Positions 1,874 through 59,624 of a DNA stretch of 64,000 nucleotides are shown in pieces. Source of the DNA: a virus. Position numbers and translations under genes: made by a program. The DNA is taken from IMG/VR virus record IMGVR_UViG_3300037247_001602, positions 30,489-94,488 of that record; one strand, 5' to 3'. Below the pieces are notes generated by a model. It ran no database searches. It was not told the origin of the DNA and saw nothing but the letters and a program-made list of their open reading frames with translations. How positions within the stretch are numbered: position 1 is the stretch's first letter; every line of letters begins with the position of its first letter.

Positions 1874-3856
1874 ATGGCTGATCAAAGCCAATTCAATCTC
1901 GTCCGGCGTCGGGGTAATTTCAATTACCCTAGCCCGTACTTCGATATTTCCTCTACGTATGTTCCGCCGTCAGTCAAGGAACTGTTCAAGTGGTGCCGCT
2001 TCTTCTTTTACTCCCATTCGATCATTAGTCCGATTATCTACAAGATTTCGGAATATCCAATCACAGGACTGATCTATCAGAGCGTCGAATCTGATCAACC
2101 CCTACCTGAGCAGGCTAAGAGCAAATGGAAGACGCTGCTTGAGAGCACTCTTAAACTGAAGTCCAGACAGATCGAGATTCTTCTCGATTATAATACCTAC
2201 GGCAACGCATTCCTTTCGATCTTGTATCCGTTCAAACGCTATCTTGTCTGCGAGAAATGCGATACCAGATCAGCCATTGAGAAGACCTCCTATAAGTGGA
2301 AAGACCTGAAGTTCTACGGAGAATGTCAGAAGTGCAACCAACAAGTCGAATTCCAGATCAACGACGTAGAAGTCAAGAATAGATCGCAATGCCGTCTTAT
2401 TCGCTGGAATCCGTTCAATATAAGTATCGATCACTGTGGACCCACGGATGAACGAGTCTATGTATACAAAATCCCGTCCAAGGACAAGAAGTCCATTATT
2501 GCCGGGAAGAAATTTTGGATTGAACGCGCTCCATATGTCTTCATTGAAGCTGCGCGAAAGAACCAGGATATCGAACTAGATCCGAACAATCTATTCCACT
2601 TCAAGCGTCCTTCGATCGCCGATAATGATATGGGATGGGGAATGCCGATCGTTCTCCCTGTCCTGAAGGACGCCTATTGGCTTCAGATTCTACGTAAGGC
2701 GAACGAGGCGATCAGCCTGGAGCATATTGTCCCGTGGAGAATTATCTTTCCTGCGGCCAACGCAGATGCATCGCCTTATGTCAATCTGAACCTGAATTCT
2801 TGGAAGAATCAGATCGAGAAGGAGGTCAGGCGTTGGCGCCAGGACCCGAACCATATCTCGGTCATGCCGCTCCCGATCGGGAATATCAGCTTCGGTGGGG
2901 ATGCCAAGCTGCTTCTGGTTTGGCAGGAAGAGAAACTTATGCAAGGCCAAATCGCAGGTGGCCTTGGAGTTCCTCTCGAATTGGTATTCGGCGGACTCAC
3001 GTGGTCTGGATCATCGGTATCACTACGAGTGCTAGAGAATCATTTTCTCACAGATAGGGAATTGCTCGATGAATTCGTCAACGAATTCCTGATCCCGCGC
3101 CTGACGCGATATTTCCGGCTGCCGAAACTCAAAGTCAAGATGATTGAGTTCAAGATGGCCGATGATGTTCAGCAGAAACAGTTGGCCATGCAACTCAATC
3201 AGGCAGGGAAACTATCAGATACAACTCTTCTTGGCCAGTCGGGGTTCGACTTCGATGATGAAGTAAAACTCAGAAGGGCCGAGCAAATTCAGCTTATTGA
3301 GATGCAGAGAAAAGCCCTGATGCAACAGGCCGAACTTCAAGGAATGACACAGGTTGTCGGAGCCAAATACCAAGCTGTTGCTCAACTCGAAATGTCACGA
3401 GCGCAAAATGTGGCGAATCAGGAGGCCATGGAGGGGCAGTATGAATTCCAGAAAGGCGTCCAACAGGAACAGCAACAGCAGGCCACGCAGCAGATAGCCA
3501 TCGATCAGGCGCAAGGGCAGCAGGGCCAGGGGAAAGGCCAACAGTCGGCAGTTCCCATGGCACAAGGTGGTGTCGTCTCAGGACAAAAGCCAGGACAAAA
3601 GCCAGGGCAGAAATCAGATCAGAAGCCGGGCCAGATGCCGACGGTAAATACCATGGATATGGTTCGCTCCTGGGCACAGGGATTGATGTCACTACCAGAG
3701 GAACAGCGTGAGATGGCGCTCGGTTCCTATGAGCAAGAACACCCTGAGACAGTCGCGCTGATCCGTCAATTCATGAAGGAGATGTTGAAGCAGACGGCAG
3801 ACATGAGACCAAACCCAGAAGTAAAACCTCCAAGAAGAAAGAACACAACAGTCTAG
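1874..3856 (+). CDS. Portal protein with zinc-ribbon insertion
   Basis: A 660-residue protein that fits the portal family: Y-N-T-Y-G-N-A-F-L near residue 106 matches the conserved core strand of portals, and an H-F-K-R-P segment is followed by a Gly-Trp-Gly-Met-Pro turn and a long amphipathic helix. Portals form the dodecameric DNA channel at the head vertex and dock the terminase. Four cysteines (C126, C129, C151, C154) form a zinc-ribbon inserted after the core, which is uncommon. The last 180 residues are a Gln-rich helix followed by low-complexity G-Q-K-P repeats. The gene sits between small head genes and fibre-like genes. Assignment rests on motif recognition and context. Confidence 0.8.
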   Translation: MADQSQFNLVRRRGNFNYPSPYFDISSTYVPPSVKELFKWCRFFFYSHSIISPIIYKISEYPITGLIYQSVESDQPLPEQAKSKWKTLLESTLKLKSRQIEILLDYNTYGNAFLSILYPFKRYLVCEKCDTRSAIEKTSYKWKDLKFYGECQKCNQQVEFQINDVEVKNRSQCRLIRWNPFNISIDHCGPTDERVYVYKIPSKDKKSIIAGKKFWIERAPYVFIEAARKNQDIELDPNNLFHFKRPSIADNDMGWGMPIVLPVLKDAYWLQILRKANEAISLEHIVPWRIIFPAANADASPYVNLNLNSWKNQIEKEVRRWRQDPNHISVMPLPIGNISFGGDAKLLLVWQEEKLMQGQIAGGLGVPLELVFGGLTWSGSSVSLRVLENHFLTDRELLDEFVNEFLIPRLTRYFRLPKLKVKMIEFKMADDVQQKQLAMQLNQAGKLSDTTLLGQSGFDFDDEVKLRRAEQIQLIEMQRKALMQQAELQGMTQVVGAKYQAVAQLEMSRAQNVANQEAMEGQYEFQKGVQQEQQQQATQQIAIDQAQGQQGQGKGQQSAVPMAQGGVVSGQKPGQKPGQKSDQKPGQMPTVNTMDMVRSWAQGLMSLPEEQREMALGSYEQEHPETVALIRQFMKEMLKQTADMRPNPEVKPPRRKNTTV

Positions 3857-11285: not shown

Positions 11286-14200
11286 ATGCTCGACTTCGAA
11301 GCTCAGGCTAGGAACAGCGAGAAGAGTCTCGTCGCCGCCATCAAGGCGATATTCCCCTATGCCGGGAAGAAGCAGACTCTCATTGCAGAGCGTATTTGGA
11401 TCGACAAGGAAGCACGAACTTTCGGGGACTTTGGTTCTCAGAAAGAGGTGAAAGGCAAAGATAAAACTTGGGCAATGCCGATCTACGGCAAGTTTCGCCT
11501 CGTGGACAACGCCACCAATGAAGTCATCGATCGGATCGACAAGATGACCCTGGTGAACCTGCCTCTGGCTACCGCTCGCGGAAGCTATATCGTGCGCGGG
11601 AGCGAGTACCAGGTCGCCAATCAGTTCCGCCTGAAGCCGGGCGTCTACACAAGAATCCAGCAGAACGGAGAGCTTGAGTCCCAGGTGAATCTGGCGAAAG
11701 GCATGAACTTCAGGATTCTCCTGGCGCCCAACTCCGGGATCTTCTTCATGAAGCTGGGGGAGACGAAGATACAACTCTATCACCTGCTCACGGCATTCGG
11801 CGTATCCCGCAGCGCCATAGAATCGATATGGGGACCGGAATTGACAGCCAAGAATTCCAAGAAAGGAAGCCAAGATGGCGAGGTTAATAAAGCTTACAAG
11901 ATCATATTTAGGAAAGAACCGGAAAATCTAGCAGAGGCGATTTCGAGCCTTGAGACTTACTTTGCTGGCAATGTGATAGATCGGAGCACGACGAAGCTCA
12001 CGCTGGGCAAGGGATTCAAGAACGTCAACGCAGATCTATTACTGAGGACTTCTGCAAGGATATTATCTGTCTCTCGCGGAGAGGATAAGGCGGACGACCG
12101 GGACTCCCTGGAATTCAAGCAGCTCTTGTCGGTGGATGATTTCCTGAGAGAGCGCATCGATAAGAATGCGAATAAGATCAAGTTCAAGATGCGTTTCAAC
12201 ATCGATCGCAAGGACAACATCCGGGAGATTATGGGTCTTTCCACGTTCAATTATCCGATAGAGAGCTTCTTCACGGGCGGGGCAGAAGCATTCGGCGGCA
12301 ATACGGGGCTGTCCAGCACGCCTGAGCAGACGAATCCCCTGCATATGCTCTCGGAGACCTCGAAAGTTATCCTGTCGGGCTCCGGAGGGATCACCAACCC
12401 ATATCAAGTTACTGTCGAGGCCAGGGCCGTCCATCCATCCACCATGGGCTTTGTAGATCCCGTGCACACGCCGGAGTCGGATCGCATAGGTACAACACTT
12501 CAGCTTCCTCTTGGCATCAAGAAAAAAGGGCAGAAAATATTGGCGGGTTTCTATAGTGTCAAGACTGGGAAGGTAGTTGATCTAGCCCCCGATCAGGCTG
12601 CGGATTCAGTCGTTTCTTTTAGAGATCAGTATGACGAGAAGAATGGCAAGTTGAAGCCTAAAACACGGAACGTAAAGGCCTCTGTGAAAGGCAAAATATC
12701 CATAGTCCCAGCAAATGAAGTCGAATATGTCATCCCGTCGCCGCAAGCTATGTTCGGGATAGCAACAAACATGATTCCTTTCTTACAAAACGATCAGGGC
12801 AATCGCGCCATGATGGCTGGCAAGATGATGACGCAGGCGCTCCCTCTGGTAAATAGAGAAGCCCCTCTCGTCCGCGTCGTGGCTGGCAAAGGCGTGGTCT
12901 TCGAAAGTGTTGCCGGCCAGGGATTCTCGCACAGAGCGCCAGTATCCGGGACTATCACGAGCGCAACCGAGAAGGAAGTCGTAATCAAAGGGGCGGACGG
13001 CAAGCGCCATACCGTGTCTCTGTACGACAATTTCCCACTCAACTCAAAAACAGCATTCATCGATGCGGAAGTTGTCGTGAAGAAAGGAGATAAAGTCAAG
13101 AAAGGGCAACTGCTTGCCGATACGACATTTACGAAGGATGGAGACCTTTCGCTTGGAATCAACGCAACTGTCGCATATATGCCCTTCAAAGGCTATAATT
13201 TCGAGGACGGAATCGTCATCAGCGAGAGTTTCTCTAAGAAATTCACATCATCGCACCTCTACAAACTTACGACTTCAATAGACAAGCAGACTCTGATGAA
13301 CCTTGCCAAGTTCAAGGCTTACTATCCGGAAGCTCTGGATCTCGCTTCGGCCAGCCGACTCGACTCGGATGGCGTCATCAAGAAAGGCGAGATCGTGAAG
13401 TTTGGCGACACGGTAATGTCCGTATTGAGGAAGGAGGAGAAAGGCCCGGAGGATCTGATTCTTGGGAGACTGCACAGAGCATTCATTAAGCCGTACAAGA
13501 ACAAGTCGGTGTTATGGGAGGAGGAGGACGAGGGCGAAGTTGTCGATGTTATCAAAACGGCGAGGAAGATCGAGGTTCATATCCGTACTGCCGAGCCAGC
13601 GAAGATTGGCGATAAGCTGGCCGGCAGGCACGGAAACAAAGGCACGATCACTTTCATCGGCGGAGATGCCGAGATGCCCACTACGGCAGATGGCGAAGTC
13701 ATTGAAGTCCTTTTGAATCCCCATAGCATTCCTGGGAGAATCAATCCAGGCCAGATCCTCGAAACGGTTGCAGGCAAGATTGCCGACAAGCAGGGCCGGC
13801 CATTTGATGTGCGTAACTTCACTGGCAGAAATTATTTGGAGGACGTGGAGAGAGCCGCAAAGAAGGCAGGCGTTCAAGACAAAGAAGATCTCGTCGATCC
13901 GGTGACGAACCAGAGACTTCCTGGCGTTCTCGTCGGAAAGCAATATATGCTGAAGCTGGACCACCCGACGAGGAAAAAATTCTCTGCTCGCGCCCAGGGG
14001 AGTTACACAGCCGACTTGCAACCATCTCGTGGTAAACACGAGGGCGGGCAGTCGATGGACACCCTGACGCTCTACTCGATGCTGTCACACGGAGCAAAAG
14101 CAAACCTGAGAGAAATGGCCACGTACAAATCTGGGCGTAACGATGAAGTATGGCGCGCCCTCCAGCTTGGCCAAAGTCTTCCGGCTCCCGCTGTTCCTTT

Positions 14201-17200
14201 TGCCACCGAGAAATTCATCTCGATGGTGAAGGGTCTTGGCGTGGACGTGAAGAAAGACGGGAATACCCTGGCCCTGTCTCCGATGACGGATAAGAAGATC
14301 CTAGAATATAGTTCTGGATCTATCAAGAATTCAAAGATTGTGCGGGGCAAGGATCTGAGGCCGGAAAAGGGCGGATTGTTTGATCCGATCATCACGGGCG
14401 GTGTTGCGGGCACGAATTGGAATCATATCGAACTAGCTGAGCCGATGCCGAATCCGATATTTGAAAACGCGATCAAGGCTATCTTGGGAATCACGGGAAC
14501 AATCTACGAGGATATTATTTCCGGGCGGCGTTATGTGACTCCGGATGGACAAATCGTTCCTGAATCCACTGATGAGACGGAAACGGGTGGTATCGGCATC
14601 AAGATCTTGCTATCCAAGATCGATATGGACAAGAAGATCAAGGAGCTGTTGGTCCAAGCCAAGAAGAAAAAAGGCGCCGCCCTGGACAAGATCAACAAGG
14701 TTATTCGTTACCTGACAGCGCTCCAGAAGAATGGACTCAAGCCGACTGATTATATCATCAAAAACATACCCGTGATGCCGGCTCGTTTGCGCCCTGTCTA
14801 CCCGCTTCCGGATGGGAGCCTGAACGTAACCGAGGTGAACCATCTCTATAAGGATCTGATTGATCTGAGCGATCAGAATCGGGACTTTATAGCCCTGGAT
14901 ATGCCCGACCAAGATATAGCCCCGCTGAGGGAGAATGTCTACAAGGGCATGAGGGCTCTCGTCGGCCTGCAAGACCATCTCGGCGGAAGGGGATACAAGG
15001 GACTCATCGAGCAGATAAGAGGCAACACGAACAAGGAGGGATTCTTCCAGAACCGTATCATGAGCCGTCGCCAGGAATTCTCAGGGCGATCAACCATTGT
15101 CCCTGAGCCTGCCCTTGGCCTCGATGACGTAGCCATTCCCGAAGAGATGGCCTGGAAAATATATCGTCCGTTTATCGTCAGGGAGCTGGTTCGCCAGGGC
15201 TACAAAGACAGCGCCCTAGAGGCAAGGGAGGAGCTGGACAAGAAGACCCCCTTGGCTATGAGAGCCTTGCAGATAGCTATGGAAGACCGGCCTGTGATGC
15301 TCAACCGGGCTCCGTCGCTGCACAAATTCAGCATTATGTCATTCATGCCACAACTCACCACGGGTAAGGCAATTAAGATAAACCCCTTGGTGGTAAAGGG
15401 TTACAACGCAGATTTTGACGGGGACACAATGGCCGTCCATGTTCCGATCACAGAAGAAGCACGAAACGAATCGTTCAAAATGCTGCCGAGCAGAAATTTA
15501 TACAACCCGCGAAGCGGCGAACTGATGAACTATCCCACTCAGGAGGCGATTACCGGACTCTATCTATTCACGCAGAGCCCGAAGGGCAGAGCAACGCTCA
15601 ATGCCATTCTCCCTGCGGCGAAATACCACATCAAGGGACCATTGACTGCCAAGGAGATGATAAGCGTTCTGGATCGGATCTCGAAGGAAATGCCGAACCA
15701 ATTCACTAAAGTCGTCAATGCACTCAAAGATATTGGGAATAGAGCATCTTACGAAATGGGATTTTCTGTCGGTCTTGAAGATCTCAAGATGGATTATTCC
15801 TCCAGGGATAGGATATTTAACGAGGCCGAAAACGCAATCAAAAAAGTGAAAGGCGACAAGACACAAGCAATCATCGATGCTTATACAAGTGCGGCGAAGA
15901 AACTCGACGTAGCTCTTCTTGGGGACAAGCGACTAAGAGCCAACTCCTTCATGATTATGGCCAGATCTGGCGGGAAGGGAAATATAGGCCAAATCAGACA
16001 GATCTTGGCTGGGCCTGTCCTCGTCAAGGATGTTCATGATCGCACTATTCCGGTTCCGATTAAGAAATCATATTCAGAAGGGTTGGACTTGGCGGACTAT
16101 TGGGCGTCAATGGCTGGTGCCCGAAAAGGTATGATTGACAGATCCCTGCAGACTTCTATCCCTGGTGCATTCGCCAAGGAACTTCTCAATGTTACCGTGA
16201 ATCACGTCATCTCGATAGCTGACTGCAAGACTACACGCGGCGTTGAAATCCCAGTGGACGATTCTGACATTCTGGATCGTTATCTGGCGCGAGGGATCAA
16301 GGACGTAGCCAGAAGAAACTCGATCGTGACGGCATATGTGATCAAGAAGGCCAGAAAGAATAATGTGAAGACCCTGCTTGTCCGAAGTCCGCTGACTTGT
16401 GAGGCCGAACAGGGCGTCTGCCAAAGATGTTACGGGCTCTCGGATAATGGGAGGCCTCCTGAAATCGGGACGAATGTTGGAGTGGAGGCTGGCCAATCAA
16501 TGGCGGAGCCTGCCACCCAGATGGTTATGCGCAGTTTCCATACGGGAGGAGCCGCAGGAATGGCAGGCGGGATCGTATCTGGATTCACGAGAATCTCCGA
16601 TCTCCTGAAGATGCCCAAAATCCTGAAAAATAAGGCAACTCTATCCCGAGAGTCCGGGAAAATCACGAAGATAGACACCTCTCCGATTGGAGGATGGAAT
16701 GTCTGGGTTGATGACGAAGAGCACCATGTGCCTGCCGGAAGACGAGTTCTTGTCAAACAAGGCCAAACAGTCTCGATGGGCGACCGCCTCAGTGATGGCC
16801 CAATTAAGCCGCAGGAACTTCTCGAACTACGAAACATGCGTGAAACACAGGATTATATTGTAAATTCGCTCAAGGATGAATATTTGAATCAAGGCATCCA
16901 AATGAGGCGCCGCGTCCTGGAAACAGTCGTCCGCCCGCTGACAAATTCAGCCAGAGTAACGCATCCGGGTGGACACGAGGCATATGTGCCCGGCGATCAT
17001 GCCCCACTGACTATTCTCGATGCATATAACCGCAAAGCTAAACCTGAAGACAAGATCGAATATGAACCGATTATTCGGGGAATCAACACGGCGCCCTTGG
17101 CGAGCCAGGACTGGATCACGAGGTTGAATTTCCAGCGCCTCAAAGAAACGCTCATCGAAGGCCCCGCGCAAGGCTGGAAATCTGATATTGCCACAATCGG

Positions 17201-17306
17201 TGCACCCCTGGCCGCATATGCATATGGTCCACTGATCGGAAGAGAGCGCGAAAAAGCTGCTGAAGATACTGCCCAACTAGAGGAGATTGGCAGTGTCTCA
17301 GAATAG
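11286..17306 (+). CDS. Fused beta/beta-prime DNA-dependent RNA polymerase
   Basis: One 2006-residue chain contains both catalytic subunits of cellular-type RNA polymerase. The beta part (to about residue 1000) shows the R-G-S-Y-I-V-R-G lobe motif, D/E-Q-T-N-P-L, G-Y-N-F-E-D (636), G-R-H-G-N-K-G (780-786) and the beta C-terminal clamp pattern. The beta-prime part has the R-R-x-E-F-S-G-R-S switch region, the catalytic N-A-D-F-D-G-D (1374-1380) with all three Asp, the trigger-loop start G-A-R-K-G (1611), and the second zinc site (C1647, C1705, C1712, C1715). The first beta-prime zinc ribbon is missing: G-L-F-D-P runs within about 15 residues into H-I-E-L-A. It is shorter than the E. coli subunits combined (about 2750). 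The clamp-helix region that binds sigma is retained in length. The next gene overlaps its end. It may be packaged in the virion or act late; unknown. Confidence 0.95.
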   Translation: MLDFEAQARNSEKSLVAAIKAIFPYAGKKQTLIAERIWIDKEARTFGDFGSQKEVKGKDKTWAMPIYGKFRLVDNATNEVIDRIDKMTLVNLPLATARGSYIVRGSEYQVANQFRLKPGVYTRIQQNGELESQVNLAKGMNFRILLAPNSGIFFMKLGETKIQLYHLLTAFGVSRSAIESIWGPELTAKNSKKGSQDGEVNKAYKIIFRKEPENLAEAISSLETYFAGNVIDRSTTKLTLGKGFKNVNADLLLRTSARILSVSRGEDKADDRDSLEFKQLLSVDDFLRERIDKNANKIKFKMRFNIDRKDNIREIMGLSTFNYPIESFFTGGAEAFGGNTGLSSTPEQTNPLHMLSETSKVILSGSGGITNPYQVTVEARAVHPSTMGFVDPVHTPESDRIGTTLQLPLGIKKKGQKILAGFYSVKTGKVVDLAPDQAADSVVSFRDQYDEKNGKLKPKTRNVKASVKGKISIVPANEVEYVIPSPQAMFGIATNMIPFLQNDQGNRAMMAGKMMTQALPLVNREAPLVRVVAGKGVVFESVAGQGFSHRAPVSGTITSATEKEVVIKGADGKRHTVSLYDNFPLNSKTAFIDAEVVVKKGDKVKKGQLLADTTFTKDGDLSLGINATVAYMPFKGYNFEDGIVISESFSKKFTSSHLYKLTTSIDKQTLMNLAKFKAYYPEALDLASASRLDSDGVIKKGEIVKFGDTVMSVLRKEEKGPEDLILGRLHRAFIKPYKNKSVLWEEEDEGEVVDVIKTARKIEVHIRTAEPAKIGDKLAGRHGNKGTITFIGGDAEMPTTADGEVIEVLLNPHSIPGRINPGQILETVAGKIADKQGRPFDVRNFTGRNYLEDVERAAKKAGVQDKEDLVDPVTNQRLPGVLVGKQYMLKLDHPTRKKFSARAQGSYTADLQPSRGKHEGGQSMDTLTLYSMLSHGAKANLREMATYKSGRNDEVWRALQLGQSLPAPAVPFATEKFISMVKGLGVDVKKDGNTLALSPMTDKKILEYSSGSIKNSKIVRGKDLRPEKGGLFDPIITGGVAGTNWNHIELAEPMPNPIFENAIKAILGITGTIYEDIISGRRYVTPDGQIVPESTDETETGGIGIKILLSKIDMDKKIKELLVQAKKKKGAALDKINKVIRYLTALQKNGLKPTDYIIKNIPVMPARLRPVYPLPDGSLNVTEVNHLYKDLIDLSDQNRDFIALDMPDQDIAPLRENVYKGMRALVGLQDHLGGRGYKGLIEQIRGNTNKEGFFQNRIMSRRQEFSGRSTIVPEPALGLDDVAIPEEMAWKIYRPFIVRELVRQGYKDSALEAREELDKKTPLAMRALQIAMEDRPVMLNRAPSLHKFSIMSFMPQLTTGKAIKINPLVVKGYNADFDGDTMAVHVPITEEARNESFKMLPSRNLYNPRSGELMNYPTQEAITGLYLFTQSPKGRATLNAILPAAKYHIKGPLTAKEMISVLDRISKEMPNQFTKVVNALKDIGNRASYEMGFSVGLEDLKMDYSSRDRIFNEAENAIKKVKGDKTQAIIDAYTSAAKKLDVALLGDKRLRANSFMIMARSGGKGNIGQIRQILAGPVLVKDVHDRTIPVPIKKSYSEGLDLADYWASMAGARKGMIDRSLQTSIPGAFAKELLNVTVNHVISIADCKTTRGVEIPVDDSDILDRYLARGIKDVARRNSIVTAYVIKKARKNNVKTLLVRSPLTCEAEQGVCQRCYGLSDNGRPPEIGTNVGVEAGQSMAEPATQMVMRSFHTGGAAGMAGGIVSGFTRISDLLKMPKILKNKATLSRESGKITKIDTSPIGGWNVWVDDEEHHVPAGRRVLVKQGQTVSMGDRLSDGPIKPQELLELRNMRETQDYIVNSLKDEYLNQGIQMRRRVLETVVRPLTNSARVTHPGGHEAYVPGDHAPLTILDAYNRKAKPEDKIEYEPIIRGINTAPLASQDWITRLNFQRLKETLIEGPAQGWKSDIATIGAPLAAYAYGPLIGREREKAAEDTAQLEEIGSVSE

Positions 17307-19314
17307 TTTGGACAGAATGCTTCTCATGCTCTCTGGCGATACACTTCAAGAGAAAATCGCGCAGTCAATCGTTGCGCCCACGCTTCAAGATACCAAAATC
17401 GAAACGGAGAAGATCGAACCAGGTCCAGGATTGAAAGAGGGCGTCCAGCTTACCCCGGCACAGATTGATTTCTCTAGATTCATCGCAGACCGTCGTGGGA
17501 TCGGAATCGCTGCTTGGAAACCTGGCGCCGGAAAGACACTTGGTACAATCGCTGCATTCCTGAATCTGAGGGCTCGGGGAGAGGCCAAGAAGGCAATCGT
17601 ACTTGTTCCCGCTTCATTGCGAGTGAACTTTGCTGAAGGAGGCGTCACTAAATTCACAGATGCCCAATATGGAATCATCGGGAACAAACAAGAAGCCGCA
17701 TCTTTCGCCGACATGGATGTTGAGCGCATGGGAGAGAAGGATTTTTATATCATCTCCCATGATATGTTTAGGGCTAACTCCGATTATTATTTGCAGAAAA
17801 CCGGCGCCGATACGGTCATCATGGATGAAATGCACCGTGTCAAAGATCCGCAATCCGTATTAAATGACGTAATCGAAAAGGTTGGCCCTACTGTCCGGAA
17901 TTTCATCGGCGCTACAGCAACGCCAGCAATGAATAAGCCCTTCGAGGCGATCGAGCTGAAAAATGTAATCAGTTCTCCCGAGGAACGATTCACGGAGAAG
18001 CAATTTACGCAAGCATTCATCGAGCGCGCTCCAAGAGATTTCTGGGAAAGAGTCCGAAGCTTGTTCGGAGGTAAACGCACCGGAGAGATCAAAGGATTCA
18101 AACGAAGGAAAGAGTTAGCCGAGCTGTTAGGTCGAACATTCCATTTTGCCGACCCTAAAGTTAAAGGGATGCCGAAGAAAGACGTTCAAATCATCGAAGT
18201 TCCGATGACCCCTACTCAGGAACAGAATTATCACGCGATCTTGAAGAAGAAACTGAACAGGCGCGAGCAACAGATTCTACGAGAGGGACAACTTTATCCT
18301 GATCGTGAAATGATCAAGATCCTCAACAAGGCCATGGCGACGCGCCAGCTATCAAACAACGCCAGGTGGGTTGAGGGCGATTTGCCAGAAAGAGCGGGAG
18401 CCGAAACGCCCAAAATACTGAGAATGACGAGAGACATTGAAGATCATATTAAGAGGCGACCTGATGCACAGATCATCATCGCATCGAACTTTGTTGGGTC
18501 TGGCGCGAAACTTATGGAGGCCATGCTCAAGCAGAGGGGTATATCATTCGGGAAATACTACGGGAAAGGCCAGGAGGGAATAACAGGGGAAACGAGAGAA
18601 CAGGCGATCAAGAACTATAACGCCGGCAAAGTCAAGGTTATGCTCATGACCGGCGCTGGCGCCGAGGGGCTGGATCTTCCGAATACGACGATGCACCTGA
18701 CGATGGACCCCCACTATAATCCCGAGAGAATCACTCAGCAAGAGGCTAGAGGAATCCGTCGTGGCGGGCAGGCTCATATTCCTCCCGAGAAGCGCAAAGT
18801 GATCGTGAAGCGCTATATATCAGTTCCCAGACAGGGATTCTCGATCGAGCGATCTATCTACCAGATCGCCGCAAAGAAGAAGGCCTTAGTCGATCAGCTA
18901 AAGCAGATCGGATTGGAAGCCCAGCAGGAGAGAGCGAGAAGAGATCCTGGACGCAGAAGGGCATTGGCCTTATTCTCTAGGCGCCAGCAGAAGCCTCAAT
19001 TACCCCAGGAGCCTGAGCGTCCCAAGCAGCCCATGATGAAAGCCGCTGGGAACGGGGGATATCTGAATGCTCGTGGTAATTTCGATGAGCACACAGTCCG
19101 ATTAATCGGTGGATCTCAGGCCGCATTCAATGTGGATTCAGGGGATACAATCGATCGAAAGTTCCATGCGCAAACTCGACTTGGGAAGTGGAGCAAGCGG
19201 AGAAAATCAACCTTGACGGGCAAGGAGCAGGCCCGGATGCGATTTACCGGGAAGACGGAAGGTAACCTAGGCCCGAACGAAAATGCCCAGCCGATAACAC
19301 GAGTAGGCTACTGA
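17293..19314 (+). CDS. SNF2/RapA-like helicase-family ATPase
   Basis: The GTG at 17293 is chosen because AGGAG lies 7 bases upstream; a TTG at 17287 is too close. The 673-residue protein has all SF2/SNF2 motifs: Walker A K-P-G-A-G-K-T (about 76-82), D-E-M-H in motif II, G-A-T-A-T-P in motif III, A-E-G-L-D-L-P in motif V and Q-E-A-R-G-I-R-R-G-G-Q in motif VI. Such proteins translocate on duplex DNA; bacterial RapA, of this family, binds and recycles RNA polymerase. Here the gene overlaps the fused polymerase gene by 14 bases, so a polymerase-associated role is a strong inference. L-Q-E-K-I-A near residue 18 resembles the IEKIA tag. The basic C-terminal ~100 residues are not conserved in SNF2 proteins. 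Confidence 0.88.
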   Translation: MSQNSLDRMLLMLSGDTLQEKIAQSIVAPTLQDTKIETEKIEPGPGLKEGVQLTPAQIDFSRFIADRRGIGIAAWKPGAGKTLGTIAAFLNLRARGEAKKAIVLVPASLRVNFAEGGVTKFTDAQYGIIGNKQEAASFADMDVERMGEKDFYIISHDMFRANSDYYLQKTGADTVIMDEMHRVKDPQSVLNDVIEKVGPTVRNFIGATATPAMNKPFEAIELKNVISSPEERFTEKQFTQAFIERAPRDFWERVRSLFGGKRTGEIKGFKRRKELAELLGRTFHFADPKVKGMPKKDVQIIEVPMTPTQEQNYHAILKKKLNRREQQILREGQLYPDREMIKILNKAMATRQLSNNARWVEGDLPERAGAETPKILRMTRDIEDHIKRRPDAQIIIASNFVGSGAKLMEAMLKQRGISFGKYYGKGQEGITGETREQAIKNYNAGKVKVMLMTGAGAEGLDLPNTTMHLTMDPHYNPERITQQEARGIRRGGQAHIPPEKRKVIVKRYISVPRQGFSIERSIYQIAAKKKALVDQLKQIGLEAQQERARRDPGRRRALALFSRRQQKPQLPQEPERPKQPMMKAAGNGGYLNARGNFDEHTVRLIGGSQAAFNVDSGDTIDRKFHAQTRLGKWSKRRKSTLTGKEQARMRFTGKTEGNLGPNENAQPITRVGY

Positions 19315-20096: not shown

Positions 20097-21518
20097 ATGA
20101 ACTTTATCGAGAAAATAGCAAGGCGCAAACGCAAGAAGAAGGAATTTGCGCCTGGACTTCCCAGAAGAGAGCAGACGACGAATCCTCCCGTCACAGAAAA
20201 GCCGAAAATATGGGCTTCTGTTATTCAGCGACACGACGCCAGGCGAGCCGGAACTCATTTTGATTTCCGTCTTGGCGATCTAGAGACTGGGATAGGCCAC
20301 TCCTGGGCGATGCGTAAGCTTCCTGGACCTGGCGAGAAAGTCCTGGCTATCCAACAGCCCGATCATACGATCCCCTATTTCAAATTCACAGGCGAGATCC
20401 CTGTCGGTTATGGCGCCGGCGAAGTAGGGCGCCACAGCCTGCTCGACGCAGAGGTATTGGAATCCGATAAGAATCGTGTCATTTTCAACCGCTATGACGG
20501 GCGCGATACGCACGAATACGTCCTTCGCCGAATGGACGACAAGCATTGGCTCCTCATCAATCGCACTCCAACAGCCAAGTCAGAACCAATGCCTGAATCC
20601 AAGCCCAAATACAAAGAGATCAAGCCCGGCCAGGTTGATCCGAAGGCCCCAGGCAGATGGGATGCCAAGATCGACGGTGCGTCTCTGAACTATGTCATCC
20701 ATGATGGCAAGCCTATTCGGGCTTTCTCGTATCGCCGCAGTAGGCGAGGGCCGGCCCTGATCCAGCATACGCAACGAATTCCTACTCTACAGGGCGAGAA
20801 GGCACCCAAAGGGTACAAGAGGACGATCCTGAGAGGTGAAGTCTGGGCCACGAATCCCAAGACGAAGAAGGCGATTGAAGCACGGGAACTGGGAGCCTTA
20901 TTGAATTCTCATGTGCTGAGATCACGCAGGCTTCAGGAATCGAAAGGAAAACTTAAGAATATTATCTTCGACATTGTCATGCACAAAGGCAAGAATGTCG
21001 AAGGATTGCCTACGGAAGAAAAGCGCCGCCTGATCGACGAGGTGATCAAAGATTCCAGATTCAAGGGAATATTCGAGAAGCCGTCTTCTGCCACGACACC
21101 TTCTGCGAAAATGAAACTCTTCGAGAAGATCCGCAAGAAACAACACAAACAAACGAAGGAAGGAGTCATCATCCATTCCCCTGAAGGCGTGATGACGAAA
21201 GTGAAATTCAAACCCGAATGGGACGTTGAGATCTCCGGCATCTTCACGAAGCCTAAATCAAAGGCCAAGGGGCAAGCGGGAGGATTCACCTATCGCAAGC
21301 TAGATGGCAAGAGGATAAGCAGGCTGTCCCGTGTAGGAACAGGATTCAGTCGCAAATTACGCGAAGCGATGTATGAGAATCCGGAAGACTTTGTCGGCGT
21401 AGTAGCCAAAGTCACAGGGATGGAGCAGTATCCTTCTGGCGCGATCCGCACCCCTTCTTTCGTTGGATGGCATTTAGATAAGAACGAGCCGGCCATGATT
21501 CCGGAGATCAAAAAGTGA
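20097..21518 (+). CDS. LigD-like phosphoesterase-ATP-dependent DNA ligase
   Basis: A 473-residue protein with two domains after an M-N-F-I-E-K-I-A tag. Residues about 38-160 match the LigD 3'-phosphoesterase domain: R-H-D-A-R-R (H46), T-H-F-D-F-R-L (H54, D56, R58) and P-D-H (H90) correspond to the family's metal-binding and catalytic residues. Residues about 185-470 are an ATP-dependent ligase: A-K-I-D-G with the nucleotide-accepting Lys at 191, E-G-V-I-I in motif IV and K-V-K-F-K in motif V. The phosphoesterase trims 3' ends before sealing, as in bacterial end joining. No Ku or polymerase domain is seen nearby. Overlaps the next gene by four bases. Confidence 0.88.
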   Translation: MNFIEKIARRKRKKKEFAPGLPRREQTTNPPVTEKPKIWASVIQRHDARRAGTHFDFRLGDLETGIGHSWAMRKLPGPGEKVLAIQQPDHTIPYFKFTGEIPVGYGAGEVGRHSLLDAEVLESDKNRVIFNRYDGRDTHEYVLRRMDDKHWLLINRTPTAKSEPMPESKPKYKEIKPGQVDPKAPGRWDAKIDGASLNYVIHDGKPIRAFSYRRSRRGPALIQHTQRIPTLQGEKAPKGYKRTILRGEVWATNPKTKKAIEARELGALLNSHVLRSRRLQESKGKLKNIIFDIVMHKGKNVEGLPTEEKRRLIDEVIKDSRFKGIFEKPSSATTPSAKMKLFEKIRKKQHKQTKEGVIIHSPEGVMTKVKFKPEWDVEISGIFTKPKSKAKGQAGGFTYRKLDGKRISRLSRVGTGFSRKLREAMYENPEDFVGVVAKVTGMEQYPSGAIRTPSFVGWHLDKNEPAMIPEIKK

Positions 21519-21786: not shown

Positions 21787-22902
21787 ATGGCAACGCCGCT
21801 ACATACAGCGCAGAGATTCGGATCGGATCGCCCGACTGAAGATCCGTACAATCAGTCGGCTACGCCGTTCCTGGAAGGGATTATCCGTGATGTGGATTCC
21901 GAGAAGTGGACATGTGAGGTTAAGACACTAGGCCTGGATCAGTCCCTCCAAGATGTCCGGATCATGTCGCCATATTTTAATTTTACGAATGGCCATGGAA
22001 TGTTCCAAATTCCAGAAATCGGCTCAATGTGCGTGGTTAGTCGCACGCAGTCTGATTGGTTCGTTGTCGGTTTCATACCGCCTTCCGATGTGGATGATAC
22101 TGAAGGTACGGAATCAGATGAGGCCACGACAGGCAGCCAGAACCTATCAGAGCCCTTCCTGGGCCAGGTAGCGGCCATTCAGAGCCGGCTACTAAAGCAA
22201 GAGCAAGGGGGAAACGGAATACCCAAACGGCACTCATTCAGATCTAACCGCGAAGGAGATATGATCCCTGGAGACGGATGCCTGAAAAGCCGGGCCGGAA
22301 ATAAATTCAAATGGTTTACAAATGGGAATCTTCTGGCCGAAGCATCGAAACTCTGCCAGAGAATATGGTCCCGATTGCAGAATCAGATCATAGATATTGC
22401 CGCCCGTTACAGTCTGCTCACTCCTGGAGTCCAGAAAGAGATCACCGTCTCTGATGAAACGCGGGAAGTCCTTGAGACGATTAAAGTTAGAAGAAAGACA
22501 GATGACGATACGCCGCAGATACAAATCAAGAGAGGATTCATCAATGGCCAAGAAGTCTATGAATTTATCGTTCAGGACAATAGCGGCGTAAAACACAGAA
22601 TCACCATTGGGACCGATGGTGAGCGCCTAGTCACAATTGGAGATCCCTCTTTCCCGGCAGTTAAGATTGAATCGAAACCATCAGGTGAGTATAATCTCAC
22701 CGCGACTACAGCGGTCAAAGTAGACGCTCCAAGCGTCATCGTAGGCGTGACAGGAGCCGAGGACTTTCTCGTGAAACTGAGTTCCTTGCTCGTCAAGTAC
22801 AACGCTCATACGCATAATGGGAATTTGGGGGCTCCGACTGGGCCAGTTCTTTCTGGTATCCTTGATAGTTCAGATGGAACGACAAAGCTGAGAGGCGGAT
22901 AG
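21787..22902 (+). CDS. Baseplate spike/hub protein, gpV (gp5) type
   Basis: A 371-residue protein. Residues about 25-100 have the pattern of the OB-fold N-terminal domain of phage baseplate assembly protein V. The centre is a beta-rich repeat region. The C-terminus has a K-Y-N-A-H-T-H-N-G motif followed by a Gly/Pro-rich end, as in gpV-like spikes whose His residues bind iron near the tip. Such proteins form the membrane-piercing spike under the tail tube of contractile-tailed phages, which supports a myovirus. A sigma70-like promoter lies directly upstream and a GGAG site precedes the next gene. Confidence 0.75.
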   Translation: MATPLHTAQRFGSDRPTEDPYNQSATPFLEGIIRDVDSEKWTCEVKTLGLDQSLQDVRIMSPYFNFTNGHGMFQIPEIGSMCVVSRTQSDWFVVGFIPPSDVDDTEGTESDEATTGSQNLSEPFLGQVAAIQSRLLKQEQGGNGIPKRHSFRSNREGDMIPGDGCLKSRAGNKFKWFTNGNLLAEASKLCQRIWSRLQNQIIDIAARYSLLTPGVQKEITVSDETREVLETIKVRRKTDDDTPQIQIKRGFINGQEVYEFIVQDNSGVKHRITIGTDGERLVTIGDPSFPAVKIESKPSGEYNLTATTAVKVDAPSVIVGVTGAEDFLVKLSSLLVKYNAHTHNGNLGAPTGPVLSGILDSSDGTTKLRGG

Positions 22903-22911: not shown

Positions 22912-24822
22912 ATGGATCTTTTCATCGAGACTCCGACTTTCGAGAAGACTGCATCGATCAAACTCTCGGAAGATATAAACGAGTGGCCTATACAGATCAC
23001 TCAGCATCTTCACGAAGAACATCCCTATCTCGTGGATGAATCATCGGAGGTCATCATCAAGAGATCCGATGCTCTTCGCGGCTACGGATATGGATTCGTG
23101 AAGATCGGAGAAAACGTGCGCGTGCCAGTTATCGTGAATCAATACGAGATGAGTCCCCTGGATGTTTGGCTTGATAAGAAGGGACTGGCCCATGTCCTCG
23201 ATGAAGATGCTGTCAGAGGAGCAACTCAGTCAACGACACTCGGCAAGGCTATCAAGCAACAGACCGATGGCTATGTCGATTCGCTGATCTACAGCAGAAC
23301 CTATCCGCCCTATGACGGCAAGTACGTATATGCTGCCGCCAACCACGAAACAGAAATAGCTGTCCACCCACGCCCATATGTTTCAGTTCTGTCCTCGATT
23401 CCGATGACGCCAGAGGAAAGGAAGGTTAACTTCGAGAAGCTGGCCCAATCCGTCGTGGCTGGATTTCATGCGAATGGAACGGACGTGACAGTTCTTAAAC
23501 CATGGCTCTCAGACGGATTCGAGAAGGTCGCCGCTGAACGGGACAAGCGTGCGAGCCCTATTGGAGCCTATTGCTCTGAGGATGCACCGATTCCCGATGC
23601 GATCATCAAGGAAGACATGAATACGGGCGATCCTCAGGTCGCCGACTCGTATGGTGACTACTTATGCGAAGGCAAGTCCGGAGAAAGATACATCGGTCAC
23701 GTTTTTCCCCATGTATACGATTTTGATCTCAAGCCCGTCGATCTTGCGATCTTCAAAGGCCGGTGGCAGCCGGATGTGAAACCAGGAGCAAGGTATCCAG
23801 TCGGACCAAAGATATGCTCCTCTGTCCAGGCCAGAATCGCCGGAATTAAGCTTCCAAAGAGCAGGAAACTACATGACGATCACGCCCGCTCGAATGAGCG
23901 CGGATTCTTCGTCAAAGAGAAGGGAGAGGCCGCAGTCGCCCTCATCCCCGTCACTATCCTGTCCGTGGCTCGGTCAAGAGAGCATCACGAGACGAAAAGA
24001 GAAAACGAGACTTATGACCGCCGAATCAAGATTGAAACAGATTATGAGATCACGAAATTCTATTGCAAGACCGATCTCGGCGAGGCGGTCACGATTGTGA
24101 AGTCGCCTAATACGACCGATGTGAAGCGGTCTGGATCGACAGTCTTCATCCCTGGATCGATGATCTTTTGCCGGCTAGAGACGCCGATCACGCTGAAAGA
24201 AGACCCGGAGATGATCAAGAAGGCTGCCCTGGCTGACTATGGCGTCAATGATATGAGGGTGAACCATATCGATGGCGTTTTCTCGTTCCACGGAACGAAT
24301 GTGGATGGCTATGAACTCCAAGCCGGCGTGCCAGAGAAAGAGGCGAGAGACTTTCTGGAACAAACGTGGACGAAGGAGGCTTCGGAGAAGATCATCAAGC
24401 GTGCCCAGCAGGGCAAGCCAGGAATCGCAACGACTATTCATGTCGCAATCGCGCCTCCTAAATTTGAAAAGACAGCTTCGGATCACATTGTCGAAGTGAA
24501 TGAAGAGGGGGTTGTCCTCACAGATCCGGAAGCGTTTGCGTTGAGGCTCCAGTATCTCACGCGGGATTTCGATAAGATTGCGGCAACGCTCCAAGATTCA
24601 GGACTCGTGGATTCCGTCTTGAGTCTGAAATTCATCAACAAAGAGAACATTGACAAATATGCTGAATTCGCTCCTCAGTTCGAAGAAGCCGTGAACCACT
24701 TGGCTGATTTGCTGATCGCATCTCGCGTCGGCCTTCAGATTCAGGAAGAAGCCGTCAAGACGGCCATGAAGAACATGGCCATCGTTGTGCGTGAGCTAAA
24801 GACGCTGAAAGGGATCAAATGA
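22912..24822 (+). CDS. Large unknown virion-module protein with repeated FEK-x-A motifs
   Basis: A 636-residue protein starting 9 bases after the spike gene. I do not recognise a family. It contains V-P-V-I-V-N-Q-Y-E-M-S-P-L-D-V near residue 65 and has an acidic helical C-terminal region. A short motif F-[ED]-K-[TLVI]-A occurs five times (near the N-terminus, then mid-chain twice, then twice in the last quarter) and resembles the IEKIA tag of other proteins. Context suggests a virion, tail or scaffold protein. The motifs could be protease sites or binding sites; nothing proves this. Confidence 0.65.
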   Translation: MDLFIETPTFEKTASIKLSEDINEWPIQITQHLHEEHPYLVDESSEVIIKRSDALRGYGYGFVKIGENVRVPVIVNQYEMSPLDVWLDKKGLAHVLDEDAVRGATQSTTLGKAIKQQTDGYVDSLIYSRTYPPYDGKYVYAAANHETEIAVHPRPYVSVLSSIPMTPEERKVNFEKLAQSVVAGFHANGTDVTVLKPWLSDGFEKVAAERDKRASPIGAYCSEDAPIPDAIIKEDMNTGDPQVADSYGDYLCEGKSGERYIGHVFPHVYDFDLKPVDLAIFKGRWQPDVKPGARYPVGPKICSSVQARIAGIKLPKSRKLHDDHARSNERGFFVKEKGEAAVALIPVTILSVARSREHHETKRENETYDRRIKIETDYEITKFYCKTDLGEAVTIVKSPNTTDVKRSGSTVFIPGSMIFCRLETPITLKEDPEMIKKAALADYGVNDMRVNHIDGVFSFHGTNVDGYELQAGVPEKEARDFLEQTWTKEASEKIIKRAQQGKPGIATTIHVAIAPPKFEKTASDHIVEVNEEGVVLTDPEAFALRLQYLTRDFDKIAATLQDSGLVDSVLSLKFINKENIDKYAEFAPQFEEAVNHLADLLIASRVGLQIQEEAVKTAMKNMAIVVRELKTLKGIK

Positions 24823-41747: not shown

Positions 41748-42917
41748 ATGAAACGCGACAATAACGGCAAACCCACCGTTGCAAGACCGTTGCAGCTCAG
41801 CAATGGTAATGCAATGGTAACGGTACCCCTTGAGCGTAGCTGGGTTACAGTATCTGAGTTCTCCAGGATCACCCACATTGCGATCAAGACAGTCAGAGAT
41901 TACATCCGACAGGGCCGGATCGCTACCAAGGCTCACCCTCACGTCAACAGACGCAGAGTCATCCCCGTAAGAGAACTCAATCGGACGATGATGAACCCTG
42001 CTGGGGCTCTCATCCCGTACCACGGCAGGATGTACCCACACAGCTTCTACATCTTTTACTGCTTGGCCAGCTATGGCAGTCGGTTCGAGATGATTAAGAG
42101 AGACCTGGAACGATACCGTGTAGTCGTGCCTCCGATGAGCGTGCTGAGAGCAATGGAAGAGGCCATATTCGAGACAGCGCCGAAAATCATCAAGAGAAAG
42201 CATAGGCTAGGATTCAGATACAACACGCTCATTGAATTCGAGAATTGGATGGAGATCTTAGGCTTCAAAGAAATATATGAAGATCCGCTTGGCTATATCC
42301 CTGCCAGAATTCTAAATTCGCAACGACTCCGGATGGTAATGGAAGTCATGGCGAGCGCAGGATTTAGACCATACGAGATCTCTGACAAGCTCCATGAGGT
42401 AACTGATGTTCTTGTAGATCCGTCGATTATTAGTAATTACCTCCTCATGTTCTTTTACCACAGGCAGATGGAGGATGATGACTGGTATGACTATCTGATA
42501 GATGTTCGCGCAGTAAATGCAATGGAGGCCAAGATCAGGGATGAGTGCGCGGACAGTAAAGTCGCCGTATACCAGCACTTAGGGCTTACCGGCGGCATAG
42601 ATATCCTTACTGAATTTGAGAAAAACCTCTATGTCGCCACGAATCTATACCGAAAAATGGCCACCTCTGAAGACTTCATGCATCAACAGGCAAGCGTGGC
42701 ACAAACCAGGGCAATGGGTAATCTTGTAGCCATCATGATGAAGTGGAAAGAGATTCACACCAAGGAGTCTGCCGAATTGCAGCAGCGGAGACAAGCTGCA
42801 CAGGGCCAAGGCCTGAATCCAGCCAATATCCCGGAGAAATCTGCCGAGGATAATGACGAAGTATTTGAGGAAGTGATCCAGAAGGAAGCCGAAGATGAAT
42901 CCGTTTCAAGCGCGTGA
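41748..42917 (+). CDS. Putative small terminase-like DNA-binding protein
   Basis: A 389-residue protein directly upstream of, and overlapping, the large terminase. Residues about 30-58 (W-V-T-V-S-E-F-S-R-I-T, then T-V-R-D-Y-I-R-Q-G-R-I) form an excisionase/MerR-type winged helix-turn-helix. The centre is helical and the C-terminus is Gln/Glu-rich and acidic, which could bind the large subunit. It is much longer than usual small terminases (about 150-200). Position and DNA-binding domain support a packaging-recognition role, without direct evidence; a regulator is an alternative. Confidence 0.55.
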   Translation: MKRDNNGKPTVARPLQLSNGNAMVTVPLERSWVTVSEFSRITHIAIKTVRDYIRQGRIATKAHPHVNRRRVIPVRELNRTMMNPAGALIPYHGRMYPHSFYIFYCLASYGSRFEMIKRDLERYRVVVPPMSVLRAMEEAIFETAPKIIKRKHRLGFRYNTLIEFENWMEILGFKEIYEDPLGYIPARILNSQRLRMVMEVMASAGFRPYEISDKLHEVTDVLVDPSIISNYLLMFFYHRQMEDDDWYDYLIDVRAVNAMEAKIRDECADSKVAVYQHLGLTGGIDILTEFEKNLYVATNLYRKMATSEDFMHQQASVAQTRAMGNLVAIMMKWKEIHTKESAELQQRRQAAQGQGLNPANIPEKSAEDNDEVFEEVIQKEAEDESVSSA

Positions 42918-44589
42918 AACCTGTGCATACTTGGATGGTAAGTCCAGGGCATGTGATATACAGCCTCCGGCTGAAGTGAATGGCCTCAAACCAGATGACG
43001 ATGCCCAGATGGCCCAGTTCGGACTCACCCACTCCGAATGGTGCGAGAAGTATGTTGTGCTCAACGGAAGGGCCTTCAGCCTGAGGCAGAGGCCGTATCT
43101 GCGGCCCATCTATGATCGCCTTCAAGTCCGACACAAAAGGATGATAATCAAGGCTGGACGCCAGGTGGAGAAGTCGACTACCTTGGCCAATAAGATTTTG
43201 CTGAATTCCTGTCGCCGCCCGAATTTCAAGGCAATTTACGTGGCGCCGCGAGGAATGCAGTCTCGTCAGTTCAGCATCGATAGAGTCAAGCCGGTGATTC
43301 GTTATTCTCCCTTTATCGCCACATTTATAGACAAGTCCTGCGTGGACCAGGTGTTCGACAAGACCTTCAACAATGGCTCGTCGCTATATTTCAGATCGGC
43401 ATTCTTGAATCCGGATTCCTGTCGTGGCTTGAGTGGCGACTTACTCAATGTTGACGAGATTCAGGACATTCTGCCCGAGAATATTCCTGTCATCGAGGAG
43501 TGCCTATCGCACTCAATATATAAATTCTTCCTGTACTCAGGCACGCCTAAGACTACCGACAATACGATGGAGCATTACTGGAAGCTCAGTACGCAGCGAG
43601 AGTGGTTAGTCACATGCCGCACCATGGGTTGCCGTTACATAAACTATCTCGACGAAGAATCCATTGGTACCACTTCGCTTATCTGCAAAAAGTGTGGCAA
43701 GACAATTTATCCGCAGGATGGGAAGTGGTACATCTTCAACAAGAAAGCCACCTGGGAAGGATACAGGATTTCCCAACTGATTGTCCCCTGGGTGAAGATC
43801 TTTGACCCGACAGGAGGAGAAGAGTCGGTCATAGATAAACGGAATCGTTACTCGCCGGCTAGATTCCACAACGAGGTTCTTGGCCTACCATATGACCTGG
43901 GCCAGAAGCCCATCACAGAAGCCGAGGTCATTGCATGCTGCACCCTCAAGCATCCCGAGACGGGGAATCCATGTCCCAATACTGTCTCGTCTGAGCCCTG
44001 GATCGCGAAGTATCCCTGCTTTGCTGGGATTGACTGGGGAACTGGATCTGGCGAGAACCCTGCTTACACGGTCCTCACCATCGGCGCCTGGCTCGATCCT
44101 GGGAGATTCTGCCCATTCTACATCAAGCGCTTCATCGGAAGAGAGGCCAACCTAGCGACCCAGCCTGAGGCAATCAGCAAGATATGCGCTAGATACAATG
44201 TCCAGCTCATGGGCTCTGACTGGGGTTTCGGCGCCGCACAGAATGCGATCCTGAGAGAGACATGGCGCATCGAGCGCGTCATGGAATTCCAGTATGTCGG
44301 GGATCAGCGAGTCCCGATTAAATTTGACAAGTCTACTCTAAGATATACTGTGAATAGAACTTCCATCATGACGGAGTTCTTCCGAAAGATCCAAAGGCAG
44401 GAATACAGATTCTTCCGCTGGGAAGAGTTCGAGAATTTTGGCAAAGACATTCTGGCTATCAATGTCGAGTACAATGACACCAGGCAAGTCATCCATTATA
44501 CGCACAGCAGCCAAAACCCCGACGACGCAGCGCACTCAATCATCTATGCTGATCTGGCGGCAATGTACTATATAGGGAAGTACAGATAG
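42895..44589 (+). CDS. Terminase large subunit
   Basis: A 564-residue protein. The ATPase has a deviant Walker A, G-R-Q-V-E-K-S-T (88-95), in which Glu replaces the usual Gly before Lys, and Walker B N-V-D-E-I-Q-D (D187, E188). A C-R-T-M-G-C ... C-K-K-C zinc site lies between the domains. The C-terminal RNase H-like nuclease shows F-A-G-I-D-W-G, G-S-D-W-G-F-G and a late D-D-A-A-H-S. It cuts and pumps DNA into the head through the portal. The portal gene is about 40 kb away. A sigma70-like promoter follows the gene. Confidence 0.9.
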   Translation: MNPFQARETCAYLDGKSRACDIQPPAEVNGLKPDDDAQMAQFGLTHSEWCEKYVVLNGRAFSLRQRPYLRPIYDRLQVRHKRMIIKAGRQVEKSTTLANKILLNSCRRPNFKAIYVAPRGMQSRQFSIDRVKPVIRYSPFIATFIDKSCVDQVFDKTFNNGSSLYFRSAFLNPDSCRGLSGDLLNVDEIQDILPENIPVIEECLSHSIYKFFLYSGTPKTTDNTMEHYWKLSTQREWLVTCRTMGCRYINYLDEESIGTTSLICKKCGKTIYPQDGKWYIFNKKATWEGYRISQLIVPWVKIFDPTGGEESVIDKRNRYSPARFHNEVLGLPYDLGQKPITEAEVIACCTLKHPETGNPCPNTVSSEPWIAKYPCFAGIDWGTGSGENPAYTVLTIGAWLDPGRFCPFYIKRFIGREANLATQPEAISKICARYNVQLMGSDWGFGAAQNAILRETWRIERVMEFQYVGDQRVPIKFDKSTLRYTVNRTSIMTEFFRKIQRQEYRFFRWEEFENFGKDILAINVEYNDTRQVIHYTHSSQNPDDAAHSIIYADLAAMYYIGKYR

Positions 44590-45967: not shown

Positions 45968-46023
45968 CCGAGAGCTAAAAATTCTAATTGTGAATGAGCC
46001 GTCCCTAACAGGAGGGGGCCGAT

Positions 46024-47331: not shown

Positions 47332-47387
47332 CTGGGATCTAAAACTTCTAATTGTGATTGAGGTATCCCTAACAGGAGGGAACCAAT

Positions 47388-56298: not shown

Positions 56299-56388
56299 TG
56301 GCGGAGCAGGAGGGAATCGAACCCACAGCCCCTTTCAGGGCAACAGTTTAGCAAACTGCCCCAGCTAACCAATATCTGGCTCTACTCC
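56299..56388 (-). tRNA. tRNA-Ser (anticodon GCT)
   Basis: The minus strand folds into a class II tRNA: 7-bp acceptor stem GGAGTAG/CTGCTCC, anticodon loop TTGCTAA, long variable arm, T-loop with GGTTCGATTCC and encoded CCA. It reads AGC/AGU. Confidence 0.92.
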
Positions 56389-56597
56389 TAACTGTCTATC
56401 GGGTAGATTTCATCCACGAGCCGTTTCGCCCTCGTATGAGTCCGGAACCTGTTCTTTTCAAGAAGGAACTGTCCATCTGCCCCCTTGATGAGCCACTGTC
56501 CGGCAAGGCGATACACAATGATACCATCGGATCGGACGAAGATGTTCTTGCTTTTGCGATCCCACGGCCCGCAGCCATTAGTTCCATTAGTCTTCAT
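56388..56597 (-). CDS. Small unknown protein
   Basis: A 69-residue basic protein with AGGGAG before the ATG. Its stop codon touches the 5' end of the serine tRNA. Beta-rich, with no motif recognised. Confidence 0.55.
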   Translation of the reverse strand: MKTNGTNGCGPWDRKSKNIFVRSDGIIVYRLAGQWLIKGADGQFLLEKNRFRTHTRAKRLVDEIYPIDS

Positions 56598-56599
56598 AT

Positions 56600-57031: not shown

Positions 57032-57046
57032 AACGACTCCTTGAAA

Positions 57047-57138
57047 TGGCGGAGAGCAAGAGAATCGAACTCTCAGCCCATGTTTCAGGGCACCTGTTCT
57101 CCAAACAGGCCCGGCGAACCAATATCCGGCTACTCTCC
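57047..57138 (-). tRNA. tRNA-Ser (anticodon GGA)
   Basis: Class II tRNA on the minus strand: acceptor GGAGAG/CTCTCC, anticodon arm CCTGT/ACAGG with loop TTGGAGA, long variable arm, T-arm with GTTCGATTC and encoded CCA. It reads UCC/UCU. Confidence 0.92.
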
Positions 57139-57243: not shown

Positions 57244-57246
57244 CAC

Positions 57247-57381: not shown

Positions 57382-57385
57382 CTGT

Positions 57386-57752: not shown

Positions 57753-57768
57753 GGGAATCCCCTAAAAA

Positions 57769-58767: not shown

Positions 58768-58786
58768 TATTTTCTCCTCCCAGAGA

Positions 58787-58875: not shown

Positions 58876-58880
58876 ATCCC

Positions 58881-59045: not shown

Positions 59046-59046
59046 G

Positions 59047-59610: not shown

Positions 59611-59624
59611 CGGATCTCCTTTTC

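Follow-up and report, generated by a model that had tools for sequence, protein, structure and literature searches.

The 64,000-nucleotide stretch of viral DNA analysed here, called the window below (bases 30489-94488 of the 94,488-base IMG/VR record IMGVR_UViG_3300037247_001602), encodes the beta and beta-prime subunits of a bacterial-type RNA polymerase (RNAP) as one continuous chain of 2006 residues. In a large and diverse lineage of tailed phages, found worldwide and still poorly known, the two large subunits are as a rule fused. The protein is very probably an active, single-chain polymerase that is free of alpha and omega and was fused in an ancestor of the lineage. Packaging of the enzyme into the virion is weighed apart from this estimate.

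The gene is a single open reading frame (ORF) with an ATG start and no internal stops. The boundaries of its halves are approximate.

11286..17306, plus strand: single-chain beta/beta-prime RNAP, 2006 residues (frame, Pfam, PDB sequence search, relatives and models)
11286..14249, plus strand: beta half, residues 1-988 (model; best PDB match bacterial beta)
13623..13643, plus strand: beta GRHGNKG motif, residues 780-786, with K785 equivalent to E. coli beta K1073 (alignment)
14250..14267, plus strand: junction KKDGNT, residues 989-994 (alignment)
14268..17303, plus strand: beta-prime half, residues 995-2006 (model; best PDB match bacterial beta-prime)
14400..14426, plus strand: site of the missing beta-prime zinc-binding domain 1, GGVAGTNWN, residues 1039-1047 (alignment)
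15405..15425, plus strand: catalytic NADFDGD, residues 1374-1380 (three Asp invariant in 98/98 phage chains)
16224..16430, plus strand: second zinc site, C1647, C1705, C1712 and C1715 (kept in 93/98 phage chains)
16518..16547, plus strand: trigger loop start QMVMRSFHTG, residues 1745-1754, with H1752 equivalent to E. coli H936 (His invariant in 98/98)

A preliminary description of this DNA had placed both large subunits and these landmarks in one frame without a stop, had noted the loss of the first beta-prime zinc ribbon and had put the chain about 700 residues below E. coli beta plus beta-prime. The ORF and its translation confirm the frame, the landmarks are in place, E. coli C70, C72, C85 and C88 have no counterpart, and the shortfall is about 740 residues when the E. 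coli subunits are taken as 1342 and 1407 residues. Along the chain Pfam recognises Rpb2 domains 3 and 6 and then Rpb1 domains 1, 2, 3, 4 and 5, at E-values down to 1e-58. In a PDB sequence search bacterial beta-prime chains are the best matches (E about 1e-115), and PDB chains recognise the protein down to 1e-114. Structure prediction, which the preliminary description had suggested as a check, gives both halves the bacterial fold. Modelled separately with AlphaFold, residues 1-995 reach a predicted local distance difference test (pLDDT) score of 84.8, with bacterial beta as the best PDB match (template modelling [TM] score about 0.79), and residues 996-2006 reach a pLDDT of 85.6, with bacterial beta-prime as the best match (TM 0.88).

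The two halves are joined with almost no linker. The beta C-terminus VKGLGVDV (IRSLGINI in E. coli) is followed by KKDGNT and then by the beta-prime N-terminus LALSPMTDKKIL (KIALASPDMIR in E. coli), and the beta C-terminal helix continues straight into the beta-prime N-terminal segment. The aligned junction measures 18 residues in 96 of 98 phage chains and 29-30 residues in the two basal chains, L081 and L072. Production of a separate beta-prime from an internal translation start was considered and ruled out because no Met near the junction is conserved among the aligned phage chains. Relatives in IMG/VR were found with an alignment query; a single-sequence scan gave none. The nearest, IMG/VR 3300031576_000004, is 53% identical to the window chain over its full length. 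A complete relative is present in 123 distinct contigs from IMG/VR and phage records, and 103 of them (94 distinct sequences) encode it as one full chain with a median length of 2048 residues. It is in pieces in the other 20, none of which breaks at the beta/beta-prime junction. Further scans, whose two lists of 80 matches share part of their entries with the earlier lists, show one frame over the junction in 80/80 and 76/80 matches, and the other 4 end at a contig edge.

Residue conservation was counted in 98 non-redundant phage chains aligned to Salmonella beta and beta-prime. R678, Q688, D814, K1065, K1073 and R1106 of beta are invariant in 98/98 chains, as are R425, D460/D462/D464 and trigger-loop H936 of beta-prime. 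Invariance of active-site residues across very large divergence implies selection for catalysis. Zinc-binding domain 1 of beta-prime is absent from 98/98 phage chains and present in 65/65 bacteria; Yersinia phage GN1 and Cobetia phage Carin-5, two-gene phages, retain zinc site 1. Clamp-helix R275 of beta-prime, a known sigma contact in E. coli, is kept in 0/98 chains, and E295 in 28/98. The rifampicin contact H526 is not kept. The window chain carries Q513S, H526E and S531I, and because the rifampicin pocket is altered in this way the enzyme would be expected to be insensitive to the drug.

Trees were built with FastTree and IQ-TREE (LG+F+R5, 88 taxa, 1885 columns), with bacteria as the only cellular sequences. 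The phage chains form a single clade on a long stem (support 1.0 in FastTree; ultrafast bootstrap, UFBoot, 100 in IQ-TREE). Phages lie a mean tree distance of 2.4 from one another and bacteria 0.96 from one another, while phages and bacteria are 3.4 apart on average. Within the clade the single-chain L081 and L072 are basal and a split-gene sub-clade, which includes cultured phages, is nested; hence fusion is ancestral and splitting is derived. The clade attaches beside Patescibacteria (100), and after removal of Patescibacteria and the two-gene phages it attaches beside one unclassified metagenome-assembled genome (78). Both attachments are probably long-branch attraction.

Searches for the small subunits, in which positive controls worked, found no alpha gene in 41 records of relatives and no omega in 15 records. 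The preliminary description had seen neither omega nor sigma in the window; this holds over the window's whole record, in which neither omega nor regions 2 and 4 of sigma were found. Of 62 records, 24 have sigma-70 region 2 above cut-off; Salmonella phage Arash and Vibrio phage D69 are among them, the window's record and its closest relative are not. As the window's record is probably incomplete, absence of sigma there does not amount to absence of sigma from the phage. A repeated-word search for phage promoters yielded a repeat array located outside the window and nothing else. On the minus strand of L005, at about 1190-1720 and 13.3-13.8 kilobases upstream of the window, eight copies of GGAAAGGTAGG(C) lie within about 500 bases, and an apparent inverted repeat follows several of them.

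Other origins for such a gene were weighed against these data. Capture of a fused rpoBC gene from a host in the recent past would agree with the head-to-tail order, which is that of the bacterial operon, and natural beta/beta-prime fusions do exist in some bacteria. It is nevertheless very improbable: identity to the window chain is 25-31% for every one of 80 bacterial rpoC loci, which cover about 20 phyla, none of these loci is fused, and the phage chains are monophyletic with distances well beyond the bacterial ones. The preliminary description had named placement inside a single host genus as the outcome that would point to capture, but the phage clade nests in no bacterial group and the polymerase falls outside the sampled bacterial clades, with a best bacterial identity of about 31%. 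Since the sampled bacteria are this distant and the phage clade has a bootstrap of 100, recent capture is excluded in our view. It had likewise named a sequencing error, and the chance that an assembly or sequencing error deleted a stop between two neighbouring genes is negligible. Nothing in favour of an error was found, the same frame and junction length occur in relatives from many independent metagenomes, no start codon is conserved near the junction, and recurrence of the single frame in 103 distinct contigs argues against it directly. That the RNAP has degenerated or been repurposed and no longer transcribes would fit the loss of zinc domain 1 and of the sigma-docking residues, but it is very unlikely given that the checked active-site residues of both halves are invariant. 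Because fusion is the rule in a lineage that stands apart from the sampled bacteria, the window enzyme is best seen as an inherited viral enzyme rather than a product of chance or recent capture.

Splitting, inserts and recoding are found among the relatives. In most of the 20 contigs with pieces, beta-prime is broken either once, after about residue 1430, or twice, after about 1080 and about 1430. In Vibrio phage D181 (L111, 2938-8452) a homing endonuclease ORF also interrupts the beta region, as either a group I intron or a true split. L034 and L042 (IMGVR 3300009703_000014 and 3300038361_000164) only look cut, through in-frame TGA codons, and reading TGA as Trp extends both ORFs. Two of the in-frame TGA of L034 coincide with a Trp that 93-95 of 98 relatives have, and the one TGA of L042 sits within an inserted segment; the two may represent a sub-clade with recoded TGA. 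Inserts of 340-530 residues are present in the RNAP chains of L021, L030, L035, L041, L069, L216, L259, L268 and L269. Many have intein-like ends (C... to ...GN|S/T/C), and the sites are often the most conserved motifs (after beta about 398, 778-816 and 948; beta-prime 1379 and 1748).

The gene is surrounded by tailed-phage genes for a portal-like protein, a Mu F-like head protein, a GpA-type terminase, Baseplate_J and tail fibres, which bears out the phage origin given in the preliminary description.

1874..3856, plus strand: portal-like protein (homologue upstream of RNAP)
17287..19314, plus strand: SNF2/DEAD-type helicase (20-base overlap with the stop codon end of the RNAP gene)
21787..22902, plus strand: protein without a family match, baseplate-spike-like by eye (conserved near RNAP)
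22912..24822, plus strand: conserved protein, family unknown (follows RNAP in the same orientation in 101 loci)
42895..44589, plus strand: terminase large subunit (GpA_ATPase, PF05876; phrog_675; family in 33/35 records tested)

In 80 loci a homologue of 21787..22902 is found downstream of RNAP and co-oriented with it, with a median gap of 290 base pairs (bp). The SNF2 helicase was considered as a core partner and rejected because no more than 20 loci have it near RNAP, and just 7 have it as the next gene downstream. At 20097-21518 of the window one protein combines a LigD-type 3'-phosphoesterase domain with an ATP-dependent DNA ligase domain, and its homologue sits just downstream of RNAP in the closest relative, L194. 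Beside the terminase (44654-48704) lie three ORFs in a row, each of about 437 residues and each with the same weak match to phrog_25468; they are possibly a tandem family of structural proteins. The minus strand at 56299-63564 carries nine tRNA genes, four of them Ser with different anticodons. Upstream of the window, L005 9240-12897 encodes a MoxR-type AAA ATPase and vWA protein pair; MoxR/vWA-like chaperone pairs have been reported in some jumbo phages (PMC7824862).

We propose that a complete bacterial-type two-barrel core is contained in one polypeptide, beta head to tail with beta-prime, and would work without alpha and omega. Catalysis would follow the normal two-metal mechanism, with the NADFDGD motif, the HGNKG lysines, the bridge helix and the trigger-loop His all in place in sequence and modelled fold. 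The covalent linkage may have taken over the assembly role of the alpha dimer and omega. Promoters would probably be read by phage sigma-70-like factors where these are present and by other phage proteins elsewhere; recognition by the phage's own factors is proposed because the clamp helices have lost their sigma-docking arginine. A single fusion event would have taken place in the ancestor of this diverse tailed-phage lineage, and a sub-clade would later have re-split the chain inside beta-prime. The enzyme would most likely be made late and perhaps be packaged into the virion, then transcribing the early genes of the next infection. A late or packaged enzyme is proposed from the position of the gene, which follows the portal gene inside the block of structural genes.

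Whether the polymerase is packaged or is a purely intracellular late polymerase stands at about even odds. The virion RNAP genes of N4 and of crAss-like phages are placed among structural genes. That of P23-45 also sits with structural genes (PMC10770324), and these precedents make packaging plausible. With a probability just short of one half, the enzyme is instead a non-virion polymerase, made early or mid-infection by the host RNAP and reading late genes with a phage sigma, and its position among structural genes is historical. Such an intracellular role concerns packaging only, and it agrees with the sigma-70-like genes in 24/62 records, both cultured relatives tested included, and with the presence of only one RNAP in the window's 94,488-base record. 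It agrees less well with the place of the gene: 116 loci have a co-oriented portal homologue upstream (median gap 708 bp), and 0 have one on the opposite strand. The non-virion RNAPs of other phages are usually found in early or middle modules. A tentative proposal combines two points: that the fusion is a derived trait common to a whole lineage of tailed phages, ancient and very diverse, and that the enzyme is also carried in the virion. The chances lean against the combination.

Several points weigh against the proposed single-chain enzyme and its packaging. The window's record is a fragment, so an initiation factor may lie outside it, and a very divergent alpha or omega could escape detection. 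The fold matches hold for each half by itself, and the chain may be processed in vivo. Gene order is what makes packaging plausible, and the genes could form a shared late operon without being virion parts. The proposal as a whole is drawn from sequence, gene order and predicted fold.

If the fusion is ancestral and the enzyme is also carried in the virion, the phages possess a self-assembling RNAP that lacks alpha and omega, is otherwise near-canonical for bacteria and is injected with the genome. Nature would then offer a minimal model for the core of cellular RNAP, one that links the cellular enzymes with the single-chain RNAPs of phages. A one-polypeptide core throughout a lineage suggests that alpha and omega are dispensable while the canonical active centre stays whole. 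One gene makes minimal assembly, sigma-independent initiation and the route from two subunits to a single chain testable, and experiments are already feasible with the cultured relatives, Salmonella phage Arash and the Vibrio phages D69 and D181.

The nearest published counterpart is the multi-subunit RNAP-encoding Caudovirales (mReC) (Weinheimer and Aylward, 2020; PMC7481178). The mReC RNAP clade is separate from cells, archaea included, and a T4-type capsid (PF07068) was reported for mReC, detected in 8/97 contigs (PMC7481178). The preliminary description had suggested membership in a published metagenomic lineage of this kind. In favour of this, the lineage described here consists of IMG/VR tailed-phage contigs with bacteria-alignable beta and beta-prime, NADxDGD and a clade apart from cells, judged here against bacteria only. 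The window itself has COG0085-type and COG0086-type regions (tested as Pfam equivalents) with NADxDGD on a tailed-phage contig, and two single-chain contigs come from metagenome 3300017989, the source also of two mReC reference contigs. Unlike mReC, PF07068 is found in 0/35 records, the window's included, while GN1, Carin-5 and Y65 are above cut-off. The terminase family (PF03237 / VOG01069 in mReC) was dropped as a means of separating the two because PF03237 and PF05876 match the same gene in some members; PF03237 is above cut-off in 4/16 lineage records, not including that of the window (PF05876). The lineage is probably mReC, a view taken from the published description. Membership is likely but unproven, and the missing PF07068 capsid speaks against a formal assignment. 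The main text of PMC7481178 uses 'fused' or 'fusion' only for crAssphage, not for mReC, and no report of the fusion described here was found in the open literature (subscription papers and preprints lay outside the search). If the lineage is mReC, its polymerase has an architecture that the text of PMC7481178 does not describe, and a single ancestral fusion belongs in models of its origin.

Among cultured phages in INPHARED, Arash, D69 and D181 are 31-36% identical over the window protein. The site at which beta and beta-prime are joined is unchanged in them, alpha is absent, and Arash and D69 have the portal upstream, but their chain breaks after about residue 1430 and the last third of beta-prime is a gene of its own. 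GN1 and Carin-5 also encode bacterial-type beta and beta-prime and join the window lineage in the tree, a grouping that may be long-branch attraction. They differ in having separate genes with beta-prime before beta, the retained zinc domain 1 and a T4-type capsid, and a scan with the beta-prime of two-gene phages (GN1, Carin-5 and others) gave three distant contigs only. The RNAPs of phiKZ, AR9 and PBS1 are likewise phage-encoded kin of beta and beta-prime without alpha or omega, but they are made of several chains (PMC7598289) where the window has one, and their matches, 24-28% identical, cover only about 20% of the window beta-prime. The crAss-like virion RNAP (phi14:2 gp66) and the P23-45 RNAPs share with the window protein two double-psi barrels in one polypeptide and the lack of small subunits (PMC10770324). 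Both are extremely divergent, the crAssphage RNAP to the point of escaping recognition by beta/beta-prime profiles (PMC7481178), whereas such profiles recognise the window protein, in which bacterial beta plus beta-prime are nearly complete.

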